Positions 25,580 to 41,327 of a stretch of DNA of 45,861 bases are shown here, in pieces (the stretch's first letter is position 1; each line of letters opens with the position of its first letter). The translations under genes and the position numbers were made by a program. A model generated the notes under the pieces. It saw nothing but the letters and a program-made list of their open reading frames with translations. It had not been told where the DNA came from and made no database searches. The stretch covers positions 1-45,861 of the forward strand of contig JAHAYJ010000069.1 of NCBI GenBank assembly GCA_018384375.1, written 5' to 3'. The DNA comes from Lachnospiraceae bacterium (GTDB lineage: Bacteria; Bacillota; Clostridia; Lachnospirales; Lachnospiraceae).

Positions 25580-26389
25580 ATGAAGGTAGTTACGTGGAAT
25601 ATTAATAGATTTGATGGAGTGTGGGATTGGTATAAGGAAAAAAGAGATTTGCCAATGCCTCAACGGAAAGAATGTGCAAATAAAATTACTGAAAAGCTTT
25701 CTGAATTATTAACAACTATGGAAGATATTGCGATTCTTCAAGAAGTCCCATATCGTGGTGCCGATTGGGAAGATGAATGGAATGAACATTGGAAGTCATT
25801 TTTGAATGAGAGGTTCAAAGTTATGCTATGGTTTGATAATGAGCCTAAAAGGAAAGATTTCAATTATAGTTCTTCAAAGAACGTTACAATAGCTATCACA
25901 AAAAAAGGCAGTAACTGGGCTATTAGATCATATGAATCAAGAGCCGTAAAATTTGGAAAGACAAATGGATATAGTGATTATGTTAACAGATACATTGAAC
26001 TTGTTAACGGGAATATGTCTCTTTTAGGATTTCATTTATCTTCAGATAAAGATGGTGAGGAACAGTGGAAGCAAATTCATTCAGTTTCTGATAGTTCAAT
26101 GTTTTCTTTTATAGTTGGTGATTTTAATGTAAACGATTTTCTATATCCGTTACAGGATGATTTACGTCGATTAGAAAAAAACTATGATCGTATGATTGAT
26201 AAGGATGTAATAACGCAAAATCAAACATTAGCATCTTTGGATAATATCTTTGTTAAAAAGGGGTTTTGTTCGAATACAAAGATATCCATTTTAGATTATT
26301 GCTACATTCCCAAATGTGATGGGTTTGGAGATTCTGTTCGCAAAATGAGATGTTCTGATCATCATGCATGTATATGTGAAATATATTAA
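25580..26389 (+). CDS. endonuclease/exonuclease/phosphatase (EEP) family protein
   Basis: The 269-residue product has all EEP superfamily motifs: VVTWNINRF at the N-terminus (Asn), AILQEVPY (metal-binding Glu), VGDFNVND (catalytic Asp/Asn), ASLDNIFV, and the final SDHHACICEI (Asp-His). EEP enzymes hydrolyse phosphodiester or phosphomonoester bonds in nucleic acids, lipids or nucleotides with Mg2+. No extra domain or signal peptide is present, so it is cytosolic. GGAGG overlaps the end of the WYL gene, giving tight coupling. The substrate is unknown; the WYL partner suggests a stress- or damage-induced nuclease or repair enzyme. Confidence 0.85.
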   Translation: MKVVTWNINRFDGVWDWYKEKRDLPMPQRKECANKITEKLSELLTTMEDIAILQEVPYRGADWEDEWNEHWKSFLNERFKVMLWFDNEPKRKDFNYSSSKNVTIAITKKGSNWAIRSYESRAVKFGKTNGYSDYVNRYIELVNGNMSLLGFHLSSDKDGEEQWKQIHSVSDSSMFSFIVGDFNVNDFLYPLQDDLRRLEKNYDRMIDKDVITQNQTLASLDNIFVKKGFCSNTKISILDYCYIPKCDGFGDSVRKMRCSDHHACICEIY

Positions 26390-26401
26390 ATCTATTGAAA
26401 A

Positions 26402-26427
26402 AGAGAGCCCACCGGCTCCCTTTTTTT
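26402..26427 (+). terminator. terminator closing the WYL-EEP operon
   Basis: AGAGAGCC pairs with GGCTCCCT (one mismatch) around a CACC loop and is followed by seven T. The gap after it, 26428-26526, holds a TTTATAAACAGGT motif seen again at about 28375. Confidence 0.85.
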
Positions 26428-26526
26428 GTCAAAAAAACTGAACTTTCTTGTTTGTGAAGGTTTATAAACAGGTTAAAGGTGTATTTATATTGTGTAATCA
26501 ATTAGAAGGAAAGGAGTTAATCCCAA

Positions 26527-26731
26527 ATGAAAACATACAAATTTACACAAGAGCATTTTCAAAGTCTCGGTGACCGTTATGTGAAAAGCATTGAATACGC
26601 ATTTGATGCGTTTGAAAAAGTTCAGAATTTATCTATGAGGAAATGATAATTAAGTTGGAGAAATCGCAAAAGAAGATGAGGCTATAAATATGGTGGAGAA
26701 TGAGATTCTGCTGAAAGGAGGCAAGGCGTGA
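26527..26731 (+). pseudogene. small gene broken by frameshift
   Basis: GGAAAGGAG leads to ATG 26527 and a 39-residue frame (MKTYKFTQEHFQSLGDRYVK) that stops at 26646. The +1 frame from 26654 continues as VGEIAKEDEAINMVENEILL up to a stop at 26731, in keeping with a single gene of about 65 codons disrupted near 26645. I do not recognise the family. Confidence 0.4.
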
Positions 26732-26895
26732 AATACAACAAAAATAAGAATATACAGGTATCTTTTACCATAAGGGAACGTCTGTATTTTAAGTTCAAGA
26801 CGTTTTGTAAAGCGGAAAAGAAAATGCCGGCAACGGTGTTAAAAGGATTCATTAAAAGCTATGTTGATGACAGAGAAAAAGAAAATGATAAATGA
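26728..26895 (+). CDS. small basic protein, possible ribbon-helix-helix DNA binder
   Basis: GTG at 26728 is preceded by AAAGGAGG, one of the best ribosome binding sites here. The 55-residue product starts with a strand-like IQVSFTIRERLYFKF, then helices (ATVLKGFIKSYVDD) and a charged tail. This is the layout of CopG/Arc-type proteins, but it is too short to be certain. Confidence 0.55.
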   Translation: MKYNKNKNIQVSFTIRERLYFKFKTFCKAEKKMPATVLKGFIKSYVDDREKENDK

Positions 26896-26909
26896 GGAGG
26901 ATATTAGCT

Positions 26910-27044: not shown

Positions 27045-27169
27045 TGCCAATTCGCAATAAGGAAAAAATAGTAGTTTGGTATAGTGTGTTGGAAAAGCGT
27101 ACACAAGATGTAATCGAGATGGAACGAAAGAAGAGTATAGAGGTACTGCAGAAGATAAAGTCTGAATGA
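27044..27169 (+). CDS. small charged helical protein
   Basis: The 41-residue frame (start MPIRNKEKIVVWYSVLEKRT) starts in overlap with the previous stop and ends in ATGA overlap with an alternative start of the next gene. It is rich in Lys and Glu and should be one amphipathic helix. No family is recognised; the evidence is coupling only. Confidence 0.4.
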   Translation: MPIRNKEKIVVWYSVLEKRTQDVIEMERKKSIEVLQKIKSE

Positions 27170-27189
27170 CACAAAGAAAGGATATAAAA

Positions 27190-27960
27190 ATGAGAAAAAG
27201 AATAATGGCTATTAATGCAAATGATATGGGTGGAAAAACTGGGCATCTCATGAGTCACCGGTATTTTAACAATCGGGATAGAAGATATCATATTGATTGG
27301 AGATATTGGGCAAAGCAGGTAGATAAAACTGAGACTTGGAACAGCCTGAAAAAATATATTTTGAAAAAGAGTCCGGATATATTGGTTGTTGAAGAGATGC
27401 TGGTCAGCAGTTATGAGAATATTGATTTTATAGGTGAACTGGCAGAAATGGGGTATTCATATGTGGAAGAGTGTCTTCCGGAGAGAGGCAATTATTCGTT
27501 GACTATGACATTCTTCCGTGAAGGCAATCCTGAGTATGTCAGCTCGCCCGGAAATTATCGGGAGAACAGGAGTGTAATCTGCAAAGATGACGAATTACTT
27601 ATATGCGGTAGTCATTTTCCCAGTGAATCCGATGAGGTGTTTTTGAAACATATGGGAGATTTTGTGGTAGCACATTTGGGGGAAGACTTCCTGCTTATTG
27701 GAGATCTGAATGCAAACGATCCAACTAGAGGAAATAAGCAAATGGTCAACAAGCTGCTGAATGAGGGGGCTGTGGATCTTTGGACGGCGGCAGGTAATGA
27801 TGAACATACGCCGACAGAGGCACAGTATCAGGGCAGGTTGGACTATGCCATAGCATCCCCGTCTCTTGCTAAGAAGGTAGAGAATATTGAGATTGATCCG
27901 TTCTTAATGGATGCAGGCATTACGGATCACGCAGCGGTTATAGTAGATATAGTAAACTAA
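27190..27960 (+). CDS. second EEP-family phosphoesterase
   Basis: The 256-residue protein has the EEP motifs IMAINANDM (Asn), ILVVEEML (Glu), LLIGDLNANDP (Asp/Asn), GRLDYAIAS (Asp) and GITDHAAVIVDI (Asp-His). It is clearly different from the protein at 25580, with little similarity outside the motifs, so this is not a simple duplication. The start at 27190 follows AAAGAAAGGA; an ATG at 27166 overlaps the previous stop and is an alternative. The substrate is unknown; the next genes are HAD phosphatases, which suggests processing of nucleic-acid ends or nucleotides. Confidence 0.8.
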   Translation: MRKRIMAINANDMGGKTGHLMSHRYFNNRDRRYHIDWRYWAKQVDKTETWNSLKKYILKKSPDILVVEEMLVSSYENIDFIGELAEMGYSYVEECLPERGNYSLTMTFFREGNPEYVSSPGNYRENRSVICKDDELLICGSHFPSESDEVFLKHMGDFVVAHLGEDFLLIGDLNANDPTRGNKQMVNKLLNEGAVDLWTAAGNDEHTPTEAQYQGRLDYAIASPSLAKKVENIEIDPFLMDAGITDHAAVIVDIVN

Positions 27961-28008
27961 CGGTTTACTGACAGTGTATTTGTGATAGTTCATAATAAGG
28001 AGATACTC

Positions 28009-28350
28009 ATGGATAGAAGTCGGATCATAGCGGTAGATTTTGATGGCACGTTGTGCTTTTCTGCCTGGCCTGATGTCGGGGAACCAAATCATCTGCTTAT
28101 TGACTATTTGAAGAAACAGAAAAAGTTAGGAAATAAGCTAATCCTCTGGACGTGTCGATCAGGGGTGGCTTTAGAAAAGGCGGTTTCCTGGTGCAGAGAA
28201 GTGGCACATCTTGAATTTGACGCGGTAAATGACAATGTACCGGAGGTGATTGATTACTACGGAAACAATTCGCGAAAGATTTCCTGTGACATTTATATTG
28301 ATGATAAAGCCTGTGTGCCGGATGATTTTTGTGTCATACAAGACGAATAA
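28009..28350 (+). CDS. HAD-superfamily phosphatase, phage-type
   Basis: This 113-residue minimal HAD domain has motif I DFDGTL (nucleophile Asp 11 and acid Asp 13 by position), motif II T in LILWTCRSG, and the late acidic motif DIYIDDKA. Such compact HADs of the IAVDFDGTLCFSAWPDVGEPN kind are common in phages and mobile elements of Firmicutes and are presumed small-molecule or polynucleotide phosphatases. AAGGAG lies seven bases before the ATG. No cap domain is present, so a large substrate could reach the active site. Confidence 0.85.
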   Translation: MDRSRIIAVDFDGTLCFSAWPDVGEPNHLLIDYLKKQKKLGNKLILWTCRSGVALEKAVSWCREVAHLEFDAVNDNVPEVIDYYGNNSRKISCDIYIDDKACVPDDFCVIQDE

Positions 28351-28464: not shown

Positions 28465-28647
28465 ATGAGTTTTGTAGTGTTTCTTGATGTGGATGGAGTT
28501 TTGAACACCAGAACGACCTGTGAGCGTGCACCATCAGAAATGTACAAAGGTATTGATGAAGCAAGAATTAAGATTCTGGCAAATGCAAGATATCTTATGC
28601 CGACACTTACAACTGTAAAGGTATGTATAGCGTCCTCAAGTGATTGA
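28465..28647 (+). pseudogene. truncated copy of the Swiss-army-knife-type HAD gene
   Basis: The 60 codons (start MSFVVFLDVDGVLNTRTTC) are a close relative of the beginning of the intact gene at 40851. The frame ends in S-S-D-stop exactly where the intact gene has S-S-D-W, so a TGG to TGA change, on top of a shortened middle, is the simplest explanation. AGAAGGAG still precedes the ATG. The 85 bases after it contain no further homologous coding that I can follow. Confidence 0.65.
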
Positions 28648-28732: not shown

Positions 28733-31579
28733 GTGAGATACTATGAATTTGCAATTAGAGGAGTTGCGAAAGATATAAAGGAGCTGCTACAGAATAAGGA
28801 GTGTCTTAGAGAGCATAGATATGGGAGTCCAATTTTTGCTGTTAACAGTTATATGTATCGCAATTTAAAAAATAACGTTGGTTTTTTAGCCTATAGGCAA
28901 GAAACGGATGATAAGATTTTAGCAGTTTTGTTTTTGGATGAAAAGAGAGAGACTCTGGAAAATGCGTATGACTATATTATCGAAGTATTAGAAGGTGTAT
29001 TTGAAATTAAAAGGATACAATTGATACCAAGTGAAATCACCATGTATGAATTTTTGGACTGTTACAGAGAGGCCAAAAGAAGAGATTATGATAATCATGG
29101 AAATAGATTTATAGAGTTGTCAAACTTATTTATATATGAATATTATATGGATAATTCAAAATCATATCATTTTAAATTTGAGGAAAAGATCATACCTGAA
29201 ATCAAAACTGAAATAAATGCAATTTATGATAAAGAATTTATTGAAGAACTTTCAAATATAGAACTGCATTCGAACAATACTGAATACCAAGGAAACTTGG
29301 TTCATTACATAATTTCAAGTAGGAGTGTCGAAGCGGCATGTGATATGACGGAGATACTTGCTCATAATTTGATAAAAGCAAATCGCATAAGTAGCAGACG
29401 AATGGAAGTCATTAGTGAAATTGAACCAGACTTATACAAGGTAAATAATCGTTTGGAAGAGATTATAGAGAATAACTATGGGGGCGTAATTGTATTTGAT
29501 TTATTAGAGAAGTTTGGATGCGATCCTGTGGAGTATCAGATGAATTGCAAATATATCGAAAAGCTTGTGAAAAGATATAAGAATGATTGTCTATTTGTAT
29601 TTACATACAATATGGACAATCCGGGATTTTCGTATTATCTTCTGCCTCAATTAAGAAGATATGTGCTTCCGGTTATGCTTCGAGAAGGTACCGGTGACAG
29701 AAAAGCGGCTGCAAGTTATTTGAAAGAATTGATAAAAAAATCTGAATATGCAAAGTATGCTAAACAGGCTAATGAGTTCATGAAATTATTTCCAGGAACT
29801 AAGTTTACTCAAACGGATGTATTAACAGCCTATGAGCAGTTTGAATCTTGGTGTCTAAATAAGAATGTGTTACAAGCTTATGATTACAACATTGCGGAAG
29901 ATTTCATGTTAGATAGGGATGAAAACGTGGAATCTTCCTCAGAGAAACTGGATAAAATGATTGGCTTGGGAATTGTGAAAGAGCAGATAAAAGCTATTTT
30001 GGCAAGGAATGTTGTAGAAAAGGAGAGAAAAAAGAGACTAGGAAACAGTTATAAGTCAGGTACAATGCACATGATATTTGGAGGGAATCCTGGCACTGCC
30101 AAAACCACAGTTGCAAAACTGTTTGCCGGAATTGCAAAAGAAAAGGGGATTCTGAAAAGCGGAGCCTTTGTGGAGCGCGGAGGAATGGATTTGAGTGGTT
30201 TGGGATGTGTCGAGGCTATCAGAGAAGCATTTCTTGCTGCAAAGGGTGGTGTTTTGTTCATTGACGAAGCGTATTCTATGGTGTGCGACACTGCCGTAAC
30301 AGTTTTTATTCAAGAGATGGAAAACAGAAGAGATGATGTGATTGTTATCCTGGCAGGCTATAATGAGCGAATGCACGAGTTTATGAAAATCAACGAAGGC
30401 TTAAAAAGCAGGATACCGCATTGGATTGATTTTCCTGACTATACTGCAGATGAACTTACGGACATCTTCAAATTGATGACACAGGAACGGGGCTTCCGTG
30501 TTACAGATGAGGCTATAAAAGAAGCGCATTATATTTTTGAGAAGGTAAGAAGTACTGATAACTTCGGCAATGGAAGATATGTAAGAAATCTGATTGATAG
30601 AGCATCGCAGAATCAGGCGGTAAGATTGCTTTCGGATGGAAAGGATGCAAGTGATTTAAAGAAGGGCGAACTTTTTCTGATAACAAAAAATGATATAAGT
30701 ATGCTGGAAGAAGGAATGAAGAAAGAACGGGAAGCAGGAACTGCAAGAAAAGAACTTGATAACATGATAGGACTTGCTTCCGTGAAAGAGATTATTCATA
30801 AGGCAATTGCTCATTACAAGCTGAATAAGCTCTGCATTGATAAAGGGATTGCAAGAGAAAAGGCATCTTTACATATGGTTTTTACCGGCAACCCCGGTAC
30901 AGCAAAGACCTCTGTAGCAAGGTTATTTGCAGAGATTATGAAGGATGAAAAGGTTCTGTCTACAGGAGTTTTTGTGGAAGTGGGGCGAGCGGATCTTGTC
31001 GGTGACCATGTGGGATCTACAGCTCCGCTGGTCAAGAAAAAGTTTAAAGAAGCACAAGGAGGTGTTCTATTTATAGACGAAGCGTATTCGCTTTGTGATA
31101 GCTATGAAAATGGTTTTGGAGATGAAGCGATCAATACTCTTGTGCAGGAAATGGAGAACCATAGAGATGATGTGATTGTAATCTTTGCCGGATATACTGA
31201 GCCGATGCGTCGGTTCCTTGATAGAAATCCGGGAATGCTTTCAAGAATTGCTTTTCAAGTAGAATTTGAGGATTATTCTACTGATGAATTATGTGACATT
31301 ACCAGACTTATGGTATCCCAAAAGCAGATGATCATTACGGATGAAGCTATGAACAAATTGAGGAAAAACTTCGATATGATACGAGAGGATAGCGATTATG
31401 GAAACGGCCGATTTGTGCGCAAGACTTTGGAGGAAGCAGAGATGAATTTGGCAGAAAGGATATTGCAGTTTAAGGAGTCGGAGATTACGGCAGAGCTAAT
31501 CACCACCATTGAAGAGTGCGACATTCCGGATCTGAGTACCAGAAAGAAGACAATCAAGAGGATGGGGTTTGCATGCTAA
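28733..31579 (+). CDS. large protein with two CbxX/SpoVK-type AAA+ domains
   Basis: A GTG at 28733 with GGAGAGG upstream starts a 948-residue protein. Residues 1 to about 400 form a mixed alpha/beta domain of unknown family. Then come two AAA+ modules of the CbxX/CfxQ/SpoVK class: the first with Walker A GNPGTAKTTVAK (about 450) and Walker B GGVLFIDEAYSM (about 505), the second with GNPGTAKTSVAR (about 718) and GGVLFIDEAYSL (about 775). The family remodels protein complexes, as in RuBisCO activase CbbX, and is also seen in type VII EccA. Both ATP sites look intact. The N-terminal domain probably selects the client. Confidence 0.88.
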   Translation: MRYYEFAIRGVAKDIKELLQNKECLREHRYGSPIFAVNSYMYRNLKNNVGFLAYRQETDDKILAVLFLDEKRETLENAYDYIIEVLEGVFEIKRIQLIPSEITMYEFLDCYREAKRRDYDNHGNRFIELSNLFIYEYYMDNSKSYHFKFEEKIIPEIKTEINAIYDKEFIEELSNIELHSNNTEYQGNLVHYIISSRSVEAACDMTEILAHNLIKANRISSRRMEVISEIEPDLYKVNNRLEEIIENNYGGVIVFDLLEKFGCDPVEYQMNCKYIEKLVKRYKNDCLFVFTYNMDNPGFSYYLLPQLRRYVLPVMLREGTGDRKAAASYLKELIKKSEYAKYAKQANEFMKLFPGTKFTQTDVLTAYEQFESWCLNKNVLQAYDYNIAEDFMLDRDENVESSSEKLDKMIGLGIVKEQIKAILARNVVEKERKKRLGNSYKSGTMHMIFGGNPGTAKTTVAKLFAGIAKEKGILKSGAFVERGGMDLSGLGCVEAIREAFLAAKGGVLFIDEAYSMVCDTAVTVFIQEMENRRDDVIVILAGYNERMHEFMKINEGLKSRIPHWIDFPDYTADELTDIFKLMTQERGFRVTDEAIKEAHYIFEKVRSTDNFGNGRYVRNLIDRASQNQAVRLLSDGKDASDLKKGELFLITKNDISMLEEGMKKEREAGTARKELDNMIGLASVKEIIHKAIAHYKLNKLCIDKGIAREKASLHMVFTGNPGTAKTSVARLFAEIMKDEKVLSTGVFVEVGRADLVGDHVGSTAPLVKKKFKEAQGGVLFIDEAYSLCDSYENGFGDEAINTLVQEMENHRDDVIVIFAGYTEPMRRFLDRNPGMLSRIAFQVEFEDYSTDELCDITRLMVSQKQMIITDEAMNKLRKNFDMIREDSDYGNGRFVRKTLEEAEMNLAERILQFKESEITAELITTIEECDIPDLSTRKKTIKRMGFAC

Positions 31580-32079
31580 TGTATAGAAGAAATCGGTATC
31601 TTGATGAATTAGGAATACCGCGCAGCTTATACTGCGGAAATTTTGTTCGGGAGAAAAAGTTTTATAGGCTGCTTCAGCGGTATCGCTATGGATTTGATTA
31701 TCGTGATATTTTTAATATGGATGCATCCTTTGCCGAATGGTTATATTCACATATGCGGATGTATAAAGAAAATAGTGTCCACGATGATACTATGCACAGT
31801 GTCGTCTTTGACGAGAACGAATACACCATCGAGGAGGTAGTGGATTGGATTATTGAAAAGACAGGAGCGTTTCTAAAGTATAGTTATTACATGGATGCGC
31901 ATTTTGATTACAAAACAAATCATCCGATTATTGGAAAATTAATAGGTAAGTTTAATCCATCTGTCAGAGAATATTTGGAGGAGTACGATTGGTCTGAAGG
32001 TAATGAATACCAAATTGAAGAAGATTACATTAAGGCTGGTAGATTATTTTTAGAGATAATGGGATATTGCTGGATGTAG
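31573..32079 (+). CDS. unknown protein coupled to the AAA+ gene
   Basis: The ATG at 31573 overlaps the AAA+ stop (ATGCTAA); a second ATG at 31579 forms TAATG with it. Either gives about 168 residues, rich in Tyr, Asp and Glu (FDYRDIFNMDASFAEWLYSH, HFDYKTNHPIIGKLIGKF). No family is recognised. The tight overlap means it depends on translation of the AAA+ gene and may be its client or adaptor. Confidence 0.65.
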   Translation: MLMYRRNRYLDELGIPRSLYCGNFVREKKFYRLLQRYRYGFDYRDIFNMDASFAEWLYSHMRMYKENSVHDDTMHSVVFDENEYTIEEVVDWIIEKTGAFLKYSYYMDAHFDYKTNHPIIGKLIGKFNPSVREYLEEYDWSEGNEYQIEEDYIKAGRLFLEIMGYCWM

Positions 32080-32089: not shown

Positions 32090-32161
32090 ATGTATGATGA
32101 TGGATATTCCGTGTCGGATATACATGGATTTTTAGAAGCTTTTAGAGGTGAAATTTTATGA
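32090..32161 (+). CDS. tiny ORF coupled to the next gene (or remnant)
   Basis: A 23-codon frame (start MYDDGYSVSDIHGFLEAFRG) begins after GAAGGGTGG and ends in an ATGA overlap with the next gene. SDIHG resembles the first metal motif of the metallophosphoesterases further on, so this may be the front end of a lost gene. It may also be a leader peptide or chance. Confidence 0.3.
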   Translation: MYDDGYSVSDIHGFLEAFRGEIL

Positions 32162-33201
32162 TAGATGCAATGGATAAAAAAATATATTTTCCAAGAACAT
32201 TCAATGAACAGATGGCTTGGATTGCTGAAGAAGTTGAGCATATTATCAAATATAATGCTGAGCACAATATTAAAAAAAATATACAAGAAGAAGGGGTAGG
32301 TGCATACGGCCAAGCTGGTTATACGCATGCAATTAATCGTTTATTCGAAATTATCGAATCCGATCCTAAAAACAAAGCACTTTTGCAAGAAGTGTGTAAA
32401 GCGAAAAAGGAACTTATGGCATTTTTTTACGATGAACCTGGTGCACTGTCTGAAAAGCAAATATATGAATATTGGAATGCTTATTTACAATCATATATAG
32501 CGGAAATGGAATCGCATCCGATGCATTATGTTTTGATAAAGGGAATAGATGTAAGACAAGATGAAGAAGAGCAAAACAATAAGTTTCTTGGAATTTATGA
32601 TGGTCTGGCAAGGCTAGAGGACGCTTATGTAGTGGCAGTGCAGAAATTAGAAGAACAACATAAGAATATGACAGGTTTGCTGGGTGATAAGGTTGATTAT
32701 ATTGTAAAGCATGAAAAAATAATGATTAATGTTTTTGACGAGTTTACAGGGCGGTGGCATTATAATGTAAAACCGGAGCAGTTGTTTTGGCGAAAAAATG
32801 CCGATACAGATAATTATAAGATGGTAGAGTGCGTGTTTGATAATCCGTATATGTATGAGGTTAAACTTGATAAGATAAAAAGAACTTTATCAGGGGAAAG
32901 GTGTAGCGGTATGAGATTGGTTATCGATATGGATGATTCAGAGATTATTTATAAGGAGAGTGGTGAACTTCCGGAGCAATTCAGCGCATACGTTTTTGTT
33001 TATAGTAACTTTGATAATTCATACAGCACGATAGTTGGTTTTTATCATCCTTATTATGACAATAACAAAGGTGGTGTCTTTGATGGAATTGGAGCTTACA
33101 TGGAATGGGACCAAATTGTTGCGTGGAAATGCTTAGAGGGAATACGGGTAAATTGCATCTCAGAGGATGATACAAGGCAAAGATTTAATGATAGTAAATA
33201 G
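32158..33201 (+). CDS. unknown protein with a helical domain shared with 34072
   Basis: This 347-residue protein starts after AGAGGTG. Residues about 15-115 are helical and align with the whole of the small protein at 34072: both keep L-F-E-x-x-x-x-D-P-K-N, E-V-x-x-A, Y-W and Y-x-A-E-M in the same order. Residues about 180-335 form a beta-rich domain (HYNVKPEQLFWRKN, MVECVFDNPYMYEVKLD, AYVFVYSNFDNSYSTIVGF). No enzyme motif is seen. The shared domain suggests that both proteins contact the same partner. Confidence 0.7.
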   Translation: MIDAMDKKIYFPRTFNEQMAWIAEEVEHIIKYNAEHNIKKNIQEEGVGAYGQAGYTHAINRLFEIIESDPKNKALLQEVCKAKKELMAFFYDEPGALSEKQIYEYWNAYLQSYIAEMESHPMHYVLIKGIDVRQDEEEQNNKFLGIYDGLARLEDAYVVAVQKLEEQHKNMTGLLGDKVDYIVKHEKIMINVFDEFTGRWHYNVKPEQLFWRKNADTDNYKMVECVFDNPYMYEVKLDKIKRTLSGERCSGMRLVIDMDDSEIIYKESGELPEQFSAYVFVYSNFDNSYSTIVGFYHPYYDNNKGGVFDGIGAYMEWDQIVAWKCLEGIRVNCISEDDTRQRFNDSK

Positions 33202-34071: not shown

Positions 34072-34446
34072 ATGACAGAAGAACAGTGGTATCGTAAAAG
34101 TATTAATTGGCAAATGGCTAATATAGGAAACGAAGTGCGCCGTGCAATTCAGTGGGCGAGGAATGAGATGAAAGCAGGGAATGCAGAATTAGATGGTTAT
34201 GACTGCCAACATATAAAAGTTGCTCAGAAGTTATTTGAATACACCAAAAGGGACCCAAAGAACGTAGGACTTATTCGAGAAGTGGAAAATGCGGAGGCAG
34301 ATATGGATTTATTGATGGCTTATCCGGGTTGCCCGAATGAAGAGGAATGGAATCTAGAAGCAGAAGAGGTCTTAGATTACTGGCAGCAGTTTATGTATGC
34401 ATATGAGGCAGAAATGATGCATTCTGAAAGTGTGGAGGAGAAATGA
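34072..34446 (+). CDS. small helical protein, paralogous to the N-domain at 32158
   Basis: This 124-residue, acidic, all-helical protein starts one base after the REC gene stop and overlaps the ATPase-HD gene by four bases (ATGA). It matches residues 15-115 of the protein at 32158 (KLFEYTKRDPKNVGLIREVE against RLFEIIESDPKNKALLQEVC). Its place between the receiver and the ATPase suggests an adaptor between them. Confidence 0.7.
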   Translation: MTEEQWYRKSINWQMANIGNEVRRAIQWARNEMKAGNAELDGYDCQHIKVAQKLFEYTKRDPKNVGLIREVENAEADMDLLMAYPGCPNEEEWNLEAEEVLDYWQQFMYAYEAEMMHSESVEEK

Positions 34447-35816
34447 TTTGCGGAATTAACTTATTGATAGAGAAATTAATGGAGGAGGTTAAGCCGGTTG
34501 GATTAACCTTGGTTGCGGGACCCGAAAAGTCGGGAAAAACAGATTTGCTGGTTGAGATGGCTAAATATGTAGCAAAGGAGGAGAAACAAAAGGTTCTTTT
34601 CTTTTCCTTGGAACATGAGAAAGAAGAGCTGATTAACAAATACATAGGAAGTGATGTGCCGTTTGATATAGATGATACTCCAGGAATATCTATGTCTGAA
34701 GTAGAGAATAAGTGTAGAACTTACACACAAAATCATGGACTCAAAATGGTATTTATAGATTATTTCTTGCTTATGGAACCTGCGGTAAAAAGATGTTCCA
34801 GGGTAGAGGAAATAGAAACAAACATAAAAGATTTAAAGACATTAGCAAAAGATTTGAATATCGCAATAACAGTTATTGCGCCATTGATGCACTATGGTGC
34901 GTGTCGAAAGCCTGTAGTCTCTGATTTTAGAGAATATGGATTTCCTATTGAAAATATGGTGGATTCAATCTTTTTTATTTGGAGAGAAAACTGGACATAT
35001 GAAATTACTGTCTGGAGTCCGGAAGTTGCTGCAAAAGAAGCTGTTGCGTATAGATTCAAGGATGAATGGGGAGAAGTACTCGAACTGGATAGAAGAATGG
35101 AAGAACGCAAGAGAGCTCCTTTATTTGCCGAATGGGAAAAAGAAACCAAAAACATAATGTCAAATCTGGAGTTGTCGTTGGAGTTCGAAAAGTATGAGAG
35201 AGAGTTGCAGATAGCGTTAGACAAAGCAATATTACTCGCTGCAAAATATCATTCCGGTCAGAGGGACAAGCAGGGAGAAAGTTATATCTTACACCCGCTT
35301 CGGGTAATGTTACATACAACAGACTCTTTGAGTAGAATGACAGCTGTCTTGCATGATATTTTAGAGGATACAGAATGTACGGAGGATATCCTTAGAGAGG
35401 AAGGGATTCCGGAGAGTGTGATTGAAAATCTGCAATGTCTTTCTAGATGCAAGGATGAGGATTATTTTGCCTATATAAACAGAGTAAATCAAGATTACTT
35501 TTGTAAATGTATCAAGCAAAAAGATATTGAGGATAATCTGCGGGAGGGGTGTCCAGAATCCTTGGAAAAGAGATACAGAAGAGCATTGGAGATACTGAAA
35601 GAAAGAGGACCATACTACTTCCGCAAAGTGATAAAAGGCAATATAGATTTAGCATATTCTGTTCCCAAAGAGGATGGTAATGTATATGTGTACTGTGAAC
35701 AACCGGATGAGACATACTTTTTCAAAACAGCAATGATACGCAAGAACGATTTGGAGATTATAGGACACTATGGTTTTTCACAAGAGGAATTGCAGGAGAT
35801 TGTGGAAGAAATATAG
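34443..35816 (+). CDS. RecA/DnaB-like ATPase fused to an alarmone-hydrolase-like HD domain
   Basis: This 457-residue fusion has at residues 1-235 a RecA-fold ATPase of the DnaB C-terminal type, with Walker A AGPEKSGKTDLL (25-36) and Walker B KMVFIDYFLLM (101-111). Residues 255-370 match the RelA/SpoT/MESH1 HD hydrolase: H270 (AAKYHSGQ), HPLRV at 284, H304-D305 (AVLHDILEDT), E308-D309, and the last metal ligand D361 in IKQKDIEDNL, aligning with IKLADRLHNM. All metal ligands are there, so hydrolysis of ppGpp-like or other nucleotides is likely. No synthetase domain is present. The C-terminus (about 400-457) is unassigned. Confidence 0.8.
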   Translation: MICGINLLIEKLMEEVKPVGLTLVAGPEKSGKTDLLVEMAKYVAKEEKQKVLFFSLEHEKEELINKYIGSDVPFDIDDTPGISMSEVENKCRTYTQNHGLKMVFIDYFLLMEPAVKRCSRVEEIETNIKDLKTLAKDLNIAITVIAPLMHYGACRKPVVSDFREYGFPIENMVDSIFFIWRENWTYEITVWSPEVAAKEAVAYRFKDEWGEVLELDRRMEERKRAPLFAEWEKETKNIMSNLELSLEFEKYERELQIALDKAILLAAKYHSGQRDKQGESYILHPLRVMLHTTDSLSRMTAVLHDILEDTECTEDILREEGIPESVIENLQCLSRCKDEDYFAYINRVNQDYFCKCIKQKDIEDNLREGCPESLEKRYRRALEILKERGPYYFRKVIKGNIDLAYSVPKEDGNVYVYCEQPDETYFFKTAMIRKNDLEIIGHYGFSQEELQEIVEEI

Positions 35817-35840: not shown

Positions 35841-36139
35841 ATGAGTAGAAGCTATAAGAAAACGCCGGTTGTTAAAGATGGGCAAGACAATGCAGGTTCG
35901 CGAAAGTGGTGGAAGAGACAAGCAAATAAAAAATCAGACGCGGTAAGTGGATTCAGAGAAAAAAATCAAAAGATTTTAGAAAAAGCGGAATAGATTCTTG
36001 GGCTATTTGTGATTATAGAACATATTGGCAGCGTAGCTGTGATATGGAATCAGATGATTTAGAGTTTTGGAAAAACTTTATTTTAGAAAGTGATATTATG
36101 AAATTTAAGGAATTACAAAAATATATATCTGTGATATCT
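35841..36139 (+). pseudogene. MSRSYKKTP-type small conserved gene, frameshifted
   Basis: An ATG at 35841 opens a 50-residue basic frame beginning MSRSYKKTPVV and containing KWWKRQANKK, a small conserved Firmicute and phage protein of unknown function. The expected following motif appears in another frame from 35996 (SWAICDYRTYW), open to 36139. One indel near 35990 splits the gene. No other gene is seen in 35817-36202. Confidence 0.6.
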
Positions 36140-36202
36140 AATTTTGCATAAAAGATGCGCAAGGTGGAGCATATATGATGCGTTTCAGTTATGGAGGTGA
36201 AA

Positions 36203-36547
36203 ATGTTGGATGTAAAAAACTATCAATTGGGATATGTATTAAGTCGAGGCAAAAGAGAACTAACGAGGTGCAAAGAAAGATTACATATAGTGGAAGGTAT
36301 TATTTTTGCTATTGAGCATCCGATTGATATTCTTGAAATAATGTTGGTTAGTGCAGATGGGAAGTCGAGTAAACAGAAGATGTGCGATGCTTTTGGTTTG
36401 TCCGGGCAGCAAGCGCAGGCTATAATTGATATGAGAATGCGGGCTTATCTCAAGACAGAGAAGAAAAAGCTAATAGAAGAATATCAAAAACTGTTGCAAG
36501 AACGTGTGGCAATGGCACACAATGTAGCGTGCAGAGAGGTGATATAA
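36203..36547 (+). CDS. orphan protein matching the DNA gyrase A C-gate/coiled-coil region
   Basis: The 114 residues align with the GyrA/ParC segment around the C-gate: RLHIVEGIIFAIEHPIDILE corresponds to R-A-H-I-L-E-G-L-x-x-A-L-D-x-I-D, and FGLSGQQAQAIIDMRMRAYL to FxLSExQAQAILDMRLxxL, then KKKLIEEYQKLL. The catalytic winged helix with the Tyr and the beta-pinwheel domain are absent. It is a complete frame with GGAGGTG before the ATG at 36203 (an ATG at 36191 is less likely) and is followed after one base by an unknown gene, so it is not just debris. It could dimerise through this region or poison or inhibit gyrase. Confidence 0.7.
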   Translation: MLDVKNYQLGYVLSRGKRELTRCKERLHIVEGIIFAIEHPIDILEIMLVSADGKSSKQKMCDAFGLSGQQAQAIIDMRMRAYLKTEKKKLIEEYQKLLQERVAMAHNVACREVI

Positions 36548-36548
36548 G

Positions 36549-37670
36549 ATGCGACAAGTAATAGGATTGAAAGATATTTGGGAGTTAGAAAATCTGGTAG
36601 AACAAGTTGTTGTAGATATGCGAGCTACGGGATATTTATACACAAGTGACGGTGATAGTATTTCGTTGGAATTAAGTGTTGAAGACAGATGTAGGATGCT
36701 GGATGAACATATTGCATCTCTATCAGCAGATGTCTTCAACTTTGTATCAAATCCTACGTTGACCCAAATTACATTCAAAGAAGCTGTTGAGATGGAAGTG
36801 GAAGATATATATCAATTGTATTTGTCTCCGGAGATATTGCTGAAAGTAAGAGGGATATTAAGAAAAGATCCAAGATTATGCTATAGCCAAATCGTTGCGG
36901 ATGAAGTCACTGATGAGATGTTGAATCAGTATATAGCTGTCAGATGGAAGGAGAATCTGAAAATCTGGACACTTCAGCGTGAGGCTTCCCAAAGTCTGTT
37001 ATCAGCAAAAGGTAGCGAATTGACAGAAAATAGAAAAGAATGGTTATCAGAATTAGCAAGGGTTGCAGAGTCTGATATTGCGTATGGAAATACCGTGTAT
37101 CCTAAATTAGTTTGTTCGGAGCGGGATGGAATTGTCGAAAGAGATTACTACTTTTGGCATCATGAAATAGGAAATATTCAGACTCTTACATATCAGTATT
37201 TACCTCAAAATAAATTAATATATCGATATTCCCAGAACCATGATGTGAAAAGTTGCAGAAGCATTGATGAGGTATTGGAAGTGGTTGCAACAAATCCCGA
37301 TAGTTTTAGTTTGGCGGGTTATGAGAGTGATTATAGCAAACAGGAAATAGCATTTATAAACAAATACCTGACAAATATGAAAAATGCAGTGAAAATTCTT
37401 CAGATAGAGCGTACGGAATGTTACGCAGTATTAGAATTGGATTATTCGAAATTTTTGGGACATACCCAAGTGGGAGAAGTTGTTTTAATAGAAAAACAAG
37501 GTGATACCTCCATAGTGGCATGTGGCTGGGATGATTATGTTACAAAACTACAATTTACAAATGAAGGCTTTACGGTGTTAGAAACAAATTTGGAAAGTGC
37601 ACAGCTATATTATACAGAGGCGATAATAAAAGATTTGTATAGAAGCCTATGGAAGAAGATTAGTGAATAG
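36549..37670 (+). CDS. unknown protein paired with the gyrase-A-like gene
   Basis: This 373-residue protein starts one base after the stop of the gyrase-like gene. The first 160 residues are mainly helical and acidic; the rest is mixed (RDYYFWHHEIGNIQTLTYQY, CYAVLELDYSKFLGHTQVGE). No catalytic motif is evident and I do not recognise a family. The tight coupling implies the two products work together. Confidence 0.65.
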   Translation: MRQVIGLKDIWELENLVEQVVVDMRATGYLYTSDGDSISLELSVEDRCRMLDEHIASLSADVFNFVSNPTLTQITFKEAVEMEVEDIYQLYLSPEILLKVRGILRKDPRLCYSQIVADEVTDEMLNQYIAVRWKENLKIWTLQREASQSLLSAKGSELTENRKEWLSELARVAESDIAYGNTVYPKLVCSERDGIVERDYYFWHHEIGNIQTLTYQYLPQNKLIYRYSQNHDVKSCRSIDEVLEVVATNPDSFSLAGYESDYSKQEIAFINKYLTNMKNAVKILQIERTECYAVLELDYSKFLGHTQVGEVVLIEKQGDTSIVACGWDDYVTKLQFTNEGFTVLETNLESAQLYYTEAIIKDLYRSLWKKISE

Positions 37671-37695
37671 TGGTTGAAGAAGGAGAGCAAATAAG

Positions 37696-37836
37696 ATGTT
37701 CATAGCGGATAGAAGAACTCAAAATATCGAGATTTTTAAGGATACAGAAAAATTATGTAAGACTAATCCCAAATTGAAAAATGCAATTACAGAATCTACT
37801 ACTAGGCAATATATTGTGAAAGAAGGAGAGTTGTAG
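37696..37836 (+). pseudogene. N-terminal remnant of a PARG-like macrodomain protein
   Basis: The 46-residue frame (RTQNIEIFKDTEKLCKTNPK, then AITESTTRQYIVKEGEL) resembles the conserved beginning of microbial poly(ADP-ribose) glycohydrolase-like proteins (TIGR02452/DUF2263), which remove ADP-ribose. The catalytic macrodomain that should follow is missing; a stop comes at 37836 and the phosphatase gene starts 25 bases on. AAGGAGAG precedes the ATG. The identification rests on a short match from memory. Confidence 0.45.
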
Positions 37837-37861
37837 ATGAGGTGAAACGAGGATAAAGATT

Positions 37862-38563
37862 ATGCATTATGTGATGGGAGACATACATAATGAAGTGGAT
37901 AAACTTCAAAGTGTGTTGAAACAAATAGATATTACTAAAGATGATGAATTAATAATACTGGGTGATGTGTTTGACAGAGGTGGAGCTAATCCGGATCCTG
38001 TCGGAGTTTATTTTACCCTTTCCGGTCTGCAAGGAAAGGTGACTTGGATTAGAGGCAATCATGATGAGTGGCTTGCTAAATACATATATGATTATTTTTC
38101 AAAATCAGAAAGAAAGCAGAAAAAAATGTGGCCTTACTCTTATAATTCTTTCGATTTGATGCTTTCGCGGCTTACCAGGGTAGATATGCTAGATATTGCC
38201 GATATTATTATGAAACTGCCTGTACAAAAAGATATGGTAATAGATAATAAGCGTTATTTGTTTGCACATGCAATGACATCATATCCATCAGTATCTGAAT
38301 CAAGTGAATATCATCTAATGGGGAACTATGATTATGACTACTTCTTGCTTGATGGCATAGAAGGATATATCTCTATGTGTGGGCATACTCCAACAGGGAA
38401 TATCTTATGGAATAAAGATCGAAATCTGTATATGGATGAATATCAGAAATCAATATGGCACAACACGAAAGAGAATGTTTATTTACTTGATTGTGGATGC
38501 GGTCTTCCAGGAGGACGACTCGCATGCATTTGTCTGGAAACGGGAGAGAGATTTTATGCATAA
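37862..38563 (+). CDS. metallophosphoesterase 1 (PPP/calcineurin-like)
   Basis: This 233-residue enzyme has all metal motifs: GDIHN, LGDVFDRGG, RGNHDEW, FAHAM (His) and CGHTPTGN. The C-terminal LDCGCGLPGGRLACICLETG is shared with the next gene. Family members act as lambda-type protein phosphatases or nucleoside polyphosphatases (ApaH/PrpE). It is the first of four such genes in a row; the first two are the most alike, suggesting tandem duplication. The start follows GAGGTGAAACGAGG. Confidence 0.9.
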   Translation: MHYVMGDIHNEVDKLQSVLKQIDITKDDELIILGDVFDRGGANPDPVGVYFTLSGLQGKVTWIRGNHDEWLAKYIYDYFSKSERKQKKMWPYSYNSFDLMLSRLTRVDMLDIADIIMKLPVQKDMVIDNKRYLFAHAMTSYPSVSESSEYHLMGNYDYDYFLLDGIEGYISMCGHTPTGNILWNKDRNLYMDEYQKSIWHNTKENVYLLDCGCGLPGGRLACICLETGERFYA

Positions 38564-38577
38564 GGAGGCGATTCTTT

Positions 38578-39327
38578 ATGGCTACATATGTTATTTCAGA
38601 TATTCACGGACAATATGACATGTTTATGGAATTACTTGATAAGATTAAGCTTAAGGAAAAAGACACGCTTTATATTTTAGGAGATGTGATTGATCGCGGA
38701 CCACATCCAATAAAGACACTCATGAAGCTCATGGAAATGCCAAACGTTATATGTATGGTTGGAAACCATGAGCTTATGGCATTAGAATGTCTGGAATTTC
38801 TTAGTAAGGAAATTACGGATATGTCCATAGAGGAACTGGATGAAAAGATGCTGGATAATCTTGTGACATGGCAATATAATGGCAGTAAATCAACTATTGA
38901 TGAATTTAGAAAACTGGATGCGGATACAAAACAAGAGGTGATAGAATTTATAAAAGAGTTACTGATATATGAAGAGATATCGGTTAATAACAAAAACTAT
39001 CTTCTAATCCACGCAGGCTTAGGAAACTATTCACAGGAAAAGGATATAGAAGATTATTCACTCCATGAACTGATATGGATGAGGGCTGATTATAGTTTGA
39101 AATATTTCGAAGACACATTTGTTATAACAGGTCATACTCCGACACAGACAATCAAAGACAATCCTAATCCCGGCTTTGTTTACAGGCATAATAATCATAT
39201 AGCTATCGATTGCGGAGCGCATTATCCGGGTGGCAGGCTTGCAGCCATATGTCTGGACACAGGAGAAGAGTATTATTCGTCGCCTAATGGAGAGGAGAAA
39301 TTGAAACATGATATATGCAATGAGTGA
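38578..39327 (+). CDS. metallophosphoesterase 2 (PPP/calcineurin-like)
   Basis: This 249-residue enzyme has SDIHGQ, LGDVIDRGP, VGNHELM, IHAGLG and TGHTPTQ. It ends in a CGAHYPGGRLAAICLDTG segment shared with gene 1. The ATG at 38578 follows AAGGAGG, which itself overlaps the stop of gene 1. It is most like PrpE/ApaH-type Ser/Thr phosphatases that also split dinucleoside tetraphosphates. Its end overlaps the next gene by 20 bases. Confidence 0.9.
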   Translation: MATYVISDIHGQYDMFMELLDKIKLKEKDTLYILGDVIDRGPHPIKTLMKLMEMPNVICMVGNHELMALECLEFLSKEITDMSIEELDEKMLDNLVTWQYNGSKSTIDEFRKLDADTKQEVIEFIKELLIYEEISVNNKNYLLIHAGLGNYSQEKDIEDYSLHELIWMRADYSLKYFEDTFVITGHTPTQTIKDNPNPGFVYRHNNHIAIDCGAHYPGGRLAAICLDTGEEYYSSPNGEEKLKHDICNE

Positions 39328-40132
39328 CATACATGGGTGTATAGAGGAACTTCAAAAGCAGATGGACCAGGTAGATCTTAGTGGAGATAATCGCATTGTA
39401 TTTCTTGGAGATTATATAGATTACGGTGATAGCTCCTATCAGGTTTTGCAATATATTTGGGAGTTGCAGAAGAAGTACGGTGATAAAAAAGTCGTTGTTC
39501 TAAAAGGGAATCATGAGCAAATGTTTTTAGATTGGATTGATGATTATAGAAATATATATTCTGACGGTTCGGAAGACTATATGACCTTCAATGATTGGCT
39601 GCGGACGGATTTCGAGCAAGGTGCAAAGACAATAAGTACTTTTATTTCGAGTAGGCAGATGGAGTTTTTGAATCAGATATCAAGAACCTGTTCCATGGAA
39701 ACAATCAACAGAGAAGCGGTACAGATGATTCTTTCTAGGCATGAGAATTTGATTCAGTGGATTAAAAATATGCCTTTGTATTATGAATCGGAAAAGCAGA
39801 TCTTTGTTCATGCTGGGGTAGATGAAGATGCGGGAGAGTATTGGATGTGGGGAACATCCGAAAATACTCTCCTTGGTAAATTTCCTGCGACGAAAGGAAA
39901 GTTCTATAAAACGATAATAGCAGGGCATGTCGGAACCGGCTCCAGGGATCTTGCTGATGATTGTAATTATCATGATGTTTATTTCGACGGAGAGAGTCAC
40001 TACTTTGTTGACGGATCAGTATATAAAGGTGGAAAACTGATTTTGTTAGCTTATGATGAGGATGAAGACAAGTATTATCAAATTGAGAATGGAAGGAAGA
40101 TACCGGTCAAAAAATTCTTTAAATATTCTTAA
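39308..40132 (+). CDS. metallophosphoesterase 3 (PPP/calcineurin-like)
   Basis: This 274-residue enzyme has MSDIHGC, LGDYIDYGDSS (Tyr in place of the Arg of DRG), KGNHEQM, VHAGVD and AGHVGTG. A helical insertion (about residues 75-140) sits between the GNHE and HAG motifs, longer than in genes 1 and 2. The changed DRG motif suggests a different phosphate-binding mode and perhaps a different substrate. AGGAGAAATTGAAAC precedes the start, inside gene 2. Confidence 0.88.
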   Translation: MIYAMSDIHGCIEELQKQMDQVDLSGDNRIVFLGDYIDYGDSSYQVLQYIWELQKKYGDKKVVVLKGNHEQMFLDWIDDYRNIYSDGSEDYMTFNDWLRTDFEQGAKTISTFISSRQMEFLNQISRTCSMETINREAVQMILSRHENLIQWIKNMPLYYESEKQIFVHAGVDEDAGEYWMWGTSENTLLGKFPATKGKFYKTIIAGHVGTGSRDLADDCNYHDVYFDGESHYFVDGSVYKGGKLILLAYDEDEDKYYQIENGRKIPVKKFFKYS

Positions 40133-40146
40133 GGAGGATCAAGGGA

Positions 40147-40833
40147 ATGAGCTTTGTTATTTCTGGAGATATTCATGGGACTTTAGATATTGGAAAGTTA
40201 ATAAAGTTTTTCGGGGAACGTGAAGGTAAATACTCAAAAGAGGATTATTTAATTATTTGCGGAGATGTAGGGGTATGTGGTTTCTCTGCTCAAAATGAAG
40301 CTGAAACAAGAAAGATATTACGAAATTTGCCGGTTACCATTTTATTTATTGATGGAAATCATGAAAATTTTGAACAGTTAAATTCCTATGCAGTAGAAGA
40401 ATGGAATGGAGGAAAAGTTCATTTTATTGAAAGTGATATTATTCATCTGATGCGTGGACAGGTTTATAATATTGATGGAACAACATTCTTTACTTTTGGT
40501 GGGGCATATAGCATTGATAAGTTGTATAGAACGGAAGGCATTTCATGGTTTCCTGAGGAAATGCCAACAAGAGAAGAATATGAGGAAGGTTTTAACAATC
40601 TGGAAAAAGTTGATTTCAAAGTAGATTATATTTTTAGTCATACTGCTCCCAGAGAAGTTGCAGCATCAATGGGTTATGGAGAGATGTCCGATGATGAAAT
40701 AGAACTGAGGCAATATCTTCAACGTGTTGCGGACTTCACAGAATTTGATGCATGGTATTTCGGACATTTCCACGAAGATACTGGAGTGGAAGATATGTTT
40801 TATTGTCTGTATGATGATGTGGTTGTATTATAA
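40147..40833 (+). CDS. metallophosphoesterase 4 (divergent)
   Basis: This 228-residue enzyme belongs to a more distant branch: GDIHGT, ICGDVGVCG, DGNHENF, FSHTAPREV and YFGHFHED. The HTAP and GHFH motifs are those of phage and clostridial phosphodiesterase-type members, so it may cut diesters, unlike genes 1-3. AAGGAGG lies ten bases before the ATG. It runs in the same operon and is followed after 17 bases by a HAD gene. Confidence 0.87.
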   Translation: MSFVISGDIHGTLDIGKLIKFFGEREGKYSKEDYLIICGDVGVCGFSAQNEAETRKILRNLPVTILFIDGNHENFEQLNSYAVEEWNGGKVHFIESDIIHLMRGQVYNIDGTTFFTFGGAYSIDKLYRTEGISWFPEEMPTREEYEEGFNNLEKVDFKVDYIFSHTAPREVAASMGYGEMSDDEIELRQYLQRVADFTEFDAWYFGHFHEDTGVEDMFYCLYDDVVVL

Positions 40834-40850
40834 CGCGAGGAGGAAAAAGG

Positions 40851-41327
40851 ATGTCATTTGCAGTATTTTTAGATGTTGACGGAGTGCTGAATTCGAGAAC
40901 TACTTGTGAACGGACTCCGGATTATCATGTTGGTATTGATGATTTAAGAGTCGCTGTTCTTGCCGGAGCAATTAAAAAGTATGGACCAACAGAGATAGTT
41001 TTATCATCTGATTGGAAAGAACTTAGACCGGAAGCAGATGATTATGTTTATTTAATTTCTAAGCTTGCAAAATATGGTTTGGAATTGGCTGGGAAGACAA
41101 CAGATCATTACAATAACAGAGGAGAAGGGATTCAATATTATTTGGAATCTCATCCGGAAATAGATGAATATGTAGTTCTAGATGATAATGAATTTGATTT
41201 TCGTGATTATCCTAATATATGGGAGAGACTGCTTCTTACAAATGGAATTGAAAGAGTAAAATTTGCGTCTAAAACGCCTGCAATTGAGGCAATTCTTTTT
41301 ATGGATTATATAAAGGAAGTTTCGTAG
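40851..41327 (+). CDS. HAD-domain protein of Swiss-army-knife RNA-repair type
   Basis: This 158-residue protein has HAD motif I FLDVDGVLNSR, motif II VLSSDW and a late acidic motif VVLDDNEFDF. The combination FLDVDGVLN...SSDW...LDDN is that of the HAD domain described in bacterial multi-domain RNA repair proteins (PF18143 type), presumed to remove phosphates from RNA ends. The intact copy here contrasts with the truncated copy at 28465. AGGAGG lies before the ATG. Confidence 0.8.
   Translation: MSFAVFLDVDGVLNSRTTCERTPDYHVGIDDLRVAVLAGAIKKYGPTEIVLSSDWKELRPEADDYVYLISKLAKYGLELAGKTTDHYNNRGEGIQYYLESHPEIDEYVVLDDNEFDFRDYPNIWERLLLTNGIERVKFASKTPAIEAILFMDYIKEVS

Follow-up and report, generated by a model that had tools for sequence, protein, structure and literature searches.

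A modular island of metallophosphoesterase and HAD phosphatase genes in Lachnospiraceae, with a possible role in reversing RNA-end or nucleotide damage

The island and its central block

Contig JAHAYJ010000069.1 of assembly GCA_018384375.1 (Lachnospiraceae bacterium; genome of 3.11 Mb in 125 contigs), referred to here over its entire length of 45,861 bp as the window, carries an island of hydrolase, ATPase and regulator genes. An earlier sequence-only reading listed there two endonuclease/exonuclease/phosphatase (EEP) enzymes, three HAD-type genes, four metallophosphoesterases (MPEs), an alarmone-hydrolase-like HD domain on a RecA-like ATPase, a double AAA+ protein, a receiver protein (REC), a GyrA-derived piece and a PARG-like remnant, bracketed by a WYL regulator and a restriction-modification (R-M) module, and proposed that the set acts jointly on damaged RNA or DNA ends or on signal nucleotides during phage attack. 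The gene list is real: the island genes named lie at 24,360-41,327, every one on the + strand, and profile, structure-library or neighbour matches support the labels. The central part is a row of four MPE genes closed by a Swiss-army-knife HAD phosphatase (HAD_SAK).

37834..41332, + strand: block MPE1-MPE4+HAD, 94.9% identical over 3,499 bp to contig G213:C90 of another genus
37862..38563, + strand: MPE1, ApaH/lambda-phosphatase-like metallophosphoesterase (Pfam Metallophos)
38491..39327, + strand: MPE2, ApaH/NinI-like (Pfam Metallophos; PHROG NinI-like phosphatase, 2.6e-50)
39308..40132, + strand: MPE3 (Pfam Metallophos; 80.6% DNA identity over 799 bp in G044)
40147..40833, + strand: MPE4 (Pfam Metallophos)
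40851..41327, + strand: HAD_SAK_2 phosphatase, full copy (Pfam, 4.5e-16)

All four MPEs match Pfam Metallophos at 1.5e-11 to 8.6e-18 and have the metal motifs. MPE1-3 are about 23-35% identical to one another, MPE4 being more distant, and the true start of MPE2 is probably the ATG at 38578. The contig that shares the block, G213:C90 (G, C and L mark the genomes, contigs and loci compared), also has a 431-bp piece of the island gene g347 at 99%, just upstream of the block.

Recurrence of the core in relatives

The association between the HAD_SAK and MPE genes was measured across a sample of 299 genomes from the family, with E 1e-20 or better as the threshold for MPE1-like and strong HAD_SAK matches. 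MPE1-like matches occur in nine of these genomes (two of which, G193 and G367, match MPE2 more closely) and strong HAD_SAK matches in five, all of them within the nine MPE1-like carriers (P 6.5e-9; leaving out the window's genome, 2.2e-7); the same five also all fall within the six strict MPE1 genomes. Weaker HAD_SAK relatives in 13 further genomes show no overlap with MPE1-like carriers, and the link to MPE1 is thus specific to this HAD_SAK subfamily. Six strong HAD_SAK copies were found outside the window, two of them partial (G061, G177:C42), and all lie on contigs with MPE genes: five on an MPE1 contig at a distance of 2-27 kb, and the sixth (G177:C3) adjoining an MPE2 homolog.

Recurrence of the island's neighbours, named beforehand as a check on joint action, was assessed at loci found by scanning 84,980 species' genomes with MPE1, which gave at least 50 loci. 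At least 15 of these reach 40% identity or more, and are labelled Lachnospiraceae, Eisenbergiella or Fusicatenibacter (11), Butyrivibrio, Ruminococcus sp., a Muribaculaceae metagenome-assembled genome and an unclassified bacterium (one each); one of the 15 is a duplicate and one partial, and L117 was dropped as a duplicate of G209:C49. Of 14 MPE1 loci, 7 have non-MPE island families and 10 have at least two MPE families; the corresponding counts among 63 control loci are 1 (P 1e-5) and 2 (P 5e-8). The controls were recruited via other anchors or through weak MPE matches, and many of them belong to more distant taxa. The test includes L021, L022, L037-L039, L054 and L120-L123 and omits the ATPase-HD query, for which a RelA/SpoT cross-match was seen in L116; the AAA+ match of L106 is a short piece only, and L112-L115 share DNA at 81-97% and are thus not independent. 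The one control locus with non-MPE island families, L123 (1685-15535; recruited by a weak MPE match), has WYL, AAA+ and MPE2/MPE4 relatives, a gene content suggestive of a sister island that lacks a close MPE1.

Open reading frames (ORFs) were clustered over 32 loci, recruited through MPE1-like genes plus two through AAA+. The families are represented at the following numbers of loci: MPE1 21 (the MPE1 gene of L115, outside the clustering's ORF set, was found in the neighbour test), MPE2 17, MPE3 12, WYL 7, AAA+, MPE4 and HAD_SAK 6 each, PARG 5 (the remnant counted), and REC, HAD1, g187 and g347/g124 3 each. The relatives, whose loci are mostly one-stranded, rearrange a repertoire of MPE1-4, HAD, double AAA+, WYL, PARG, receiver and a GyrA C-gate module. 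Sub-blocks are preserved, namely MPE1-2-3-4-HAD in G213:C90, MPE1-2-3 in L111 and MPE1-2 in G219; in G209, PARG, REC and MPE2 stand side by side. Judged from gene content, the core is made up of MPEs plus HAD_SAK, often accompanied by AAA+ and WYL, and the accessories are exchangeable. The claim of a joint system is supported, by the HAD_SAK/MPE1 co-occurrence and the shared block, for a smaller core, but not for a single 16-kb system.

One fixed 16-kb operon was rejected, as order mostly differs among relatives though sub-blocks persist. Cassette recombination was likewise rejected, no intergenic repeat family being found beyond the AAA duplication and short 22-40 nt pairs, as was a phage origin, since IMG/VR scans with ATPase-HD, EEP1 and MPE1 queries found nothing close.

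Other genes of the island

The genes ahead of the central block run from the WYL regulator to the PARG remnant.

24360..25577, + strand: WYL-domain regulator, 405 aa (Pfam WYL 23.2 bits, cut-off 21.8; PADLOC WYL 3.2e-16)
25580..26389, + strand: EEP1, endonuclease/exonuclease/phosphatase fold (PF03372 Exo_endo_phos 22.0 bits, below the 24.5 cut-off)
27166..27960, + strand: EEP2 (PF03372 32.2 bits, 1.1e-7), 21 bp ahead of HAD1
27982..28350, + strand: HAD1, BT0820-like HAD phosphatase (NCBIfam 2.2e-25, 89.6 bits against a cut-off of 165; PHROG 24386, 3.1e-37)
28465..28647, + strand: truncated second HAD_SAK gene, corresponding to the first 40 aa of the full one (68% identity)
28733..31579, + strand: double AAA+ (CbbX/CfxQ-like) with a ~390-aa N-terminal region (Pfam AAA 2.5e-26, AAA_lid_6 3.5e-28; CbbX 1.9e-53)
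31516..32079, + strand: g187, of a family that recurs in the G219 and G044 islands
32158..33201, + strand: g347, with an N-terminal domain common to g124 and an L113 protein
33666..34070, + strand: stand-alone receiver-like protein (Pfam Response_reg 30.3 bits, cut-off 30.2)
34072..34446, + strand: g124, paralog of the g347 N-terminal domain
34443..35816, + strand: RecA/DnaB-like ATPase fused to a SpoT/MESH1-type HD hydrolase (DnaB_C 3.6e-31; motifs present)
35841..35993, + strand: small basic 'MSRSYK' protein of the recurrent family F8 (matches a G177 homolog, 5e-6)
36191..36547, + strand: stand-alone GyrA C-gate-like segment (PF00521 DNA_topoisoIV model positions 319-416 of 432, 43.9 bits, 1.9e-11)
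36549..37670, + strand: g373, for which no relatives were found in these searches
37696..37836, + strand: PARG N-terminal remnant, 46 aa

The WYL regulator ends 2 bp before the start of EEP1, and proteins of its cluster occur at six other loci among the 32 compared. EEP1 scores below the Pfam cut-off yet retains the N, E, GDFN and SDH catalytic motifs, and with EEP2 above it the two EEP enzymes stand; so do the three HAD-type genes, HAD1 being identified through NCBIfam and PHROG with no Pfam match. PDB sequence searches with EEP2, HAD_SAK and the RNA-dependent RNA polymerase (RdRP)-like protein described below were empty at the limits set. An EEP gene adjoins HAD1 in G177 and G213 as in the window, and EEP-HAD gene neighbours occur in the window, G177, G213 and G209. 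Three tiny overlapping ORFs at 26728-27169 precede EEP2 (by eye a possible ribbon-helix-helix protein, a membrane peptide and a 42-aa ORF) and could form a toxin-antitoxin-like leader. In G171 (L228, 9375-10480), a HAD1 homolog is immediately preceded by a WYL relative (27%, 8e-18), and the 20 kb examined there contain no MPE match.

The double AAA+ protein is 66% identical over 947 aa to its G213 homolog; the AlphaFold model of its N-terminal region, with a mean pLDDT of 48.5, was not used. Homologs of the receiver are flanked by PARG and MPE2 in G209 and located close to MPE1 in L108. The HD_4 part of the ATPase-HD fusion scores 22.8 bits in Pfam, below the 27.2 cut-off; the nearest solved relative of the HD domain is 7smg, a (p)ppApp hydrolase (3.4e-21), in agreement with the alarmone-hydrolase-like label. 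REC, g124 and the ATPase-HD gene are spaced as tightly as the stretch from the GyrA piece to g231 (36,191-42,040), where gaps are at most 25 bp throughout. Since the GyrA piece covers model positions 319-416, it is not the active-site part of gyrase, which presumably lies elsewhere in the model. The C-gate module is also present in island proteins of G061, G044, L113 and L114, fused to other proteins in G044 and L113/L114; such segments without the gyrase active site lie at L093:12235-13125 and L113:4199-5395 as well as in the window. Three PARG-type proteins near relatives, all full-length, match the PARG remnant at their N-termini (7e-9, 4e-4, 8e-4), and the one in L053 in turn matches solved PARGs (5e-23). 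Pfam, CbbX or homolog matches thus bear out the AAA+, receiver, GyrA and PARG labels.

Setting of the island and its sister islands

Upstream of the island, remnants of a mobilizable element precede the WYL gene, and an R-M module follows on the right.

22095..24345, + strand: mobilizable-element remnants (Pfam; short ORFs)
22095-22580, + strand: integrase N-terminus, 161 aa (Phage_int_SAM_3 5e-21)
22550-23026, + strand: ParM-like C-terminus, 158 aa (MreB-like_C 3.7e-6)
23056-23418, + strand: 120-aa protein
23725-24345, + strand: Mob_Pre relaxase N-terminus, 206 aa (Mob_Pre 5.8e-14)
from 42,249: R-M module, Eco47II-type (C5 methyltransferase and Eco47II)

The mobility genes beside the island are all short or truncated. 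The G+C content of about 0.45 falls to 0.33-0.41 from 21 kb onward, the drop coming after a pyrF-like gene. Both brackets named in the sequence-only reading are present, but the R-M module is not recurrent and was rejected as an island member, its four genes having no match in 13 MPE1 loci. Beyond 42.2 kb there are also a D12 methylase and, cut by the contig end, the beginning of an OLD-like ATPase (45319-45861), whose N-terminal part resembles the defence ATPases PtuA, AriA and GajA; the island may run on into a defence gene here. As the window is a whole contig, the right end of the island is open. No structured RNA was matched by Rfam at the gathering threshold.

The islands of G219:C47 (L089/L090) and G044:C34 (L100/L093) belong to two genera, yet both follow uvrD-like and rumA-like genes of the same two clusters (F30 and F31; named by eye), which suggests a chromosomal hot spot. 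An AAA_33 P-loop protein stands directly ahead of MPE1 in G219. Sister islands also contain a homolog of about 1,150 aa of eukaryote-type RdRPs (PF05183, 4.9e-15, DFDGD motif) with a partner of about 330 aa, at L086:4676-8116 and 8113-9096 and also in G209:C49, G061:C13 and G177:C42 (pieces only in G061 and G177). The RdRP-like gene occurs in 9 of the 299 genomes at 1e-6, four of them MPE1-positive, and has no match in the window's genome. A DUF2828/DUF7788 VWA protein, which we take to be Ro/TROVE-like, is encoded in G209 (L099:16227-17855), and the G213 island contains a homolog from the same cluster; relatives show fusions of HD with metallophosphoesterase and of a GNAT acetyltransferase with metallophosphoesterase (L105:3333-5003, L107:12151-13665). 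Another locus, L206 (MT835651.1), is labelled 'Bacteriophage sp.' and is an unverified faecal scaffold, most of whose shared genes are 90-100% identical to a Fusicatenibacter chromosomal island, one EEP gene and one neighbour differing; it seems to be mislabelled or packaged host DNA.

Possible function and alternative explanations

Published predictions exist for several of these protein types. WYL proteins are predicted to sense nucleotide-like ligands and govern defence (excerpt of PMC4012209). Cleaning of RNA ends in phages is predicted for Swiss-army HAD, calcineurin-like and HD phosphatases (PMC7824862, in part), and WYL, calcineurin-like, alarmone-type HD and HAD genes are grouped in predicted ADP-ribose-countering systems (PMC9503650, likewise in part); between them, the excerpts of these two papers predict RNA repair and ADP-ribose clearing for Swiss-army HAD, calcineurin-like and HD phosphatases, cRec (cyclic-phosphate receiver) and WYL. 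A small alarmone hydrolase (SAH) can neutralize the products of toxSAS toxins, according to a portion of PMC11782079. Given these predictions for WYL, HAD, calcineurin-like, HD and SAH proteins, the most likely function is that of a damage-reversal or signal-clearing set, and the reading tentatively preferred here, though short of being probable outright, is that the island is a modular, laterally moving hydrolase set that reverses RNA-end damage or removes toxic or signal nucleotides made in conflicts. Its core would be 2-4 ApaH-like metallophosphoesterases and the Swiss-army-knife HAD phosphatase, with WYL, double AAA+, EEP enzymes, PARG, the receiver-like protein and the alarmone-type HD hydrolase as variable additions. 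The island is probably under WYL control. What is shown is the identity of the genes, their catalytic motifs, the recurrence of the families and the shared block; the reading leans on these and on the EEP-HAD adjacency, the 2-bp distance from WYL to EEP1 and the solved relatives of the HD domain, MPE1 and MPE2. Under this reading the conflict would most likely stem from phage, toxin-antitoxin or interbacterial toxins; phage attack as the specific trigger and RNA/DNA ends as the substrate, as proposed at the outset, are inferred.

The proposed course of events would begin with the WYL protein binding a nucleotide-like ligand and releasing expression. EEP, MPE and HAD enzymes would then strip cyclic, terminal or cap-like phosphates, and the HD domain, fed by its RecA-like ATPase, would take the 3'-pyrophosphate off (p)ppApp/(p)ppGpp or tRNA ends, the latter being a substrate on which such HD hydrolases act. 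PARG, where intact in relatives, would clear ADP-ribose, and the AAA+ protein would release stalled complexes. If the reading is right, a major gut bacterial family owns a combinatorial system that undoes RNA or nucleotide damage, in which alarmone, cap-like and ADP-ribose chemistry are joined in one locus and the substrate question for several co-inherited phosphatases is narrowed by co-occurrence to one small block (MPE1-4 + HAD).

A bolder version, of doubtful standing, holds that Lachnospiraceae carry an undescribed modular RNA-damage response with the ApaH-like array and Swiss-army HAD as its core, to which sister islands add PARG, the RdRP homolog with its partner and the Ro/TROVE-like VWA protein. 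Under WYL control, such a system would mend damaged RNA, rid it of ADP-ribose and perhaps make fresh copies of it, and the GyrA C-gate would serve as a portable dimerization or gyrase-contact domain.

Several findings weigh against a damage-reversal set, some of which favour instead a genomic junkyard, a hot spot that gathers unrelated small genes without joint function. Gene order is largely unconserved between relatives, PARG and one HAD copy are only remnants in the window, and many members have no known identity. HAD1 occurs in 29 of the 299 genomes, mostly away from MPE1, and its overlap with MPE1 is weak (4/9; P 0.006, or 0.03 without the window's genome); at 8 of 8 HAD1 loci examined away from MPE1 the core genes are absent, a WYL relative being present at one. 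The RdRP-like gene lacks MPE1 in five of its nine genomes, and those five loci have no island query beyond RdRP/F12, one giving no match at all. PARG lies away from MPE1 at three places (G083, G075:C146, G053), and the two of these examined have no other island gene, while in G075:C155 PARG occurs together with MPE and AAA+ relatives. A WYL search of 45 genomes gave five matches at 1e-5 besides the window's; of those below 1e-15, one is in an island (G044) and one off the MPE1 contig (G219:C33). Also adverse are the lack of any EEP1 relative in the other 143 of 144 genomes searched, the lack of a protein spanning both parts of the ATPase-HD fusion among the matches listed, the match of the receiver to an ordinary Response_reg model, and the fact that the co-occurrence and neighbour tests ignore phylogeny. 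Finally, neither an RNA ligase (RtcB or ATP-grasp) nor a polynucleotide kinase was matched by Pfam in the 30 window proteins scanned, so that RNA sealing would need other genes; end healing or nucleotide clearance may be all that the island does. A junkyard nevertheless sits poorly with the specific HAD_SAK/MPE1 co-occurrence, the block held at 95% identity in another genus, the tight spacing around the block and the mostly one-stranded relatives, and is judged unlikely, though it is the strongest of the three competing explanations.

The enzymes could alternatively serve mobile elements by destroying host defence nucleotides (cyclic oligonucleotides, cyclic ADP-ribose, alarmones). Such a role has been proposed for phage enzymes, calcineurin-like ones included (PMC7824862, as excerpted), and would suit the mobile-element remnants at the border and the MPE1 homologs, at about 27%, in Clostridioides phages. 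However, close MPE1 relatives sit on bacterial genome contigs and none on IMG/VR viral contigs (best 40% over 67 aa); the top phage-collection match, MT835968.1 (47%), is, like MT835651.1, an unverified faecal scaffold, and the uvrD-like/rumA-like genes (named by eye) ahead of the G044 and G219 islands mark a chromosomal site. This explanation ranks just behind the junkyard, and the bolder RNA-damage response after it. Lowest in standing is a protein-phosphatase island, with MPE1-4 acting on phosphoproteins to counter kinase signalling or toxins and the HAD and EEP genes as unrelated passengers. ApaH-like MPEs can also act as protein phosphatases, a further point against the preferred reading: the best solved match of MPE1 is a Ser/Thr phosphatase, with Ap4A hydrolases and PP2A also listed, and MPE2 matches the NinI-like phosphatases of PHROG. 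Against this, the best solved matches of MPE2 are Ap4A hydrolases, and both the HAD partner in the core and the pairing of EEP with HAD genes would point toward nucleotides or nucleic acid.

Relation to known systems

Conflict RNA-repair systems with a Swiss-army-knife HAD were reportedly described by Burroughs and Aravind in 2016. Going by the description in the excerpted PMC7824862, such systems have in common with the island HAD_SAK, calcineurin-like and HD phosphatases, a receiver-like protein and WYL, and their feature of end-processing phosphatases is represented here by HAD_SAK and the MPEs. In contrast to them, no ligase, kinase or nucleotidyltransferase was matched among the window proteins scanned, and the window's island has a double AAA+ protein and four consecutive MPE genes. 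As for the likeness of its receiver to cRec proteins, which are divergent receivers linked to WYL, RNA or ADP-ribose enzymes instead of kinases, linkage to PARG and MPE genes is seen, but the sole Pfam match, at 30.3 bits, is the ordinary model noted above; Pfam also has a cREC model.

ARG-centred systems, predicted to act against viral ADP-ribosylation and named from actinobacteria, planctomycetes and proteobacteria (PMC9503650, part of the text), share WYL, a calcineurin-like phosphatase, an alarmone-type HD and HAD with the island, and in both variable modules surround a core. The transcription factor of these systems is of WYL or Nudix type, WYL being the one present here. No ARG domain was matched in the window, however, a PARG-type gene standing in its place, here as a 46-aa remnant. 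The toxSAS modules with a small alarmone hydrolase antitoxin (PMC11782079, in part) share the SAH/MESH1-type HD hydrolase, here with Pfam HD_4 below its cut-off, whereas no alarmone synthetase was matched among the 30 window proteins and the HD domain is fused to a RecA-like ATPase. Bacterial ApaH/lambda-type phosphatases have the same fold and metal motifs, the island differing by its clustered paralogs.

The statement that no named system has this gene set agrees with PADLOC, which for nine island or WYL proteins (MPE1, MPE3, MPE4 and HAD1 not among them) gave WYL and weak ATPase similarity to IetA, TRIP13, RtcR and mad8 and named no system, and with the titles and abstract starts of the literature found, in which the island is not described. 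Although it misses a defining feature of each (ligase, ARG and toxin, respectively), the island resembles the published predicted RNA-repair and ADP-ribose systems as well as toxSAS modules.

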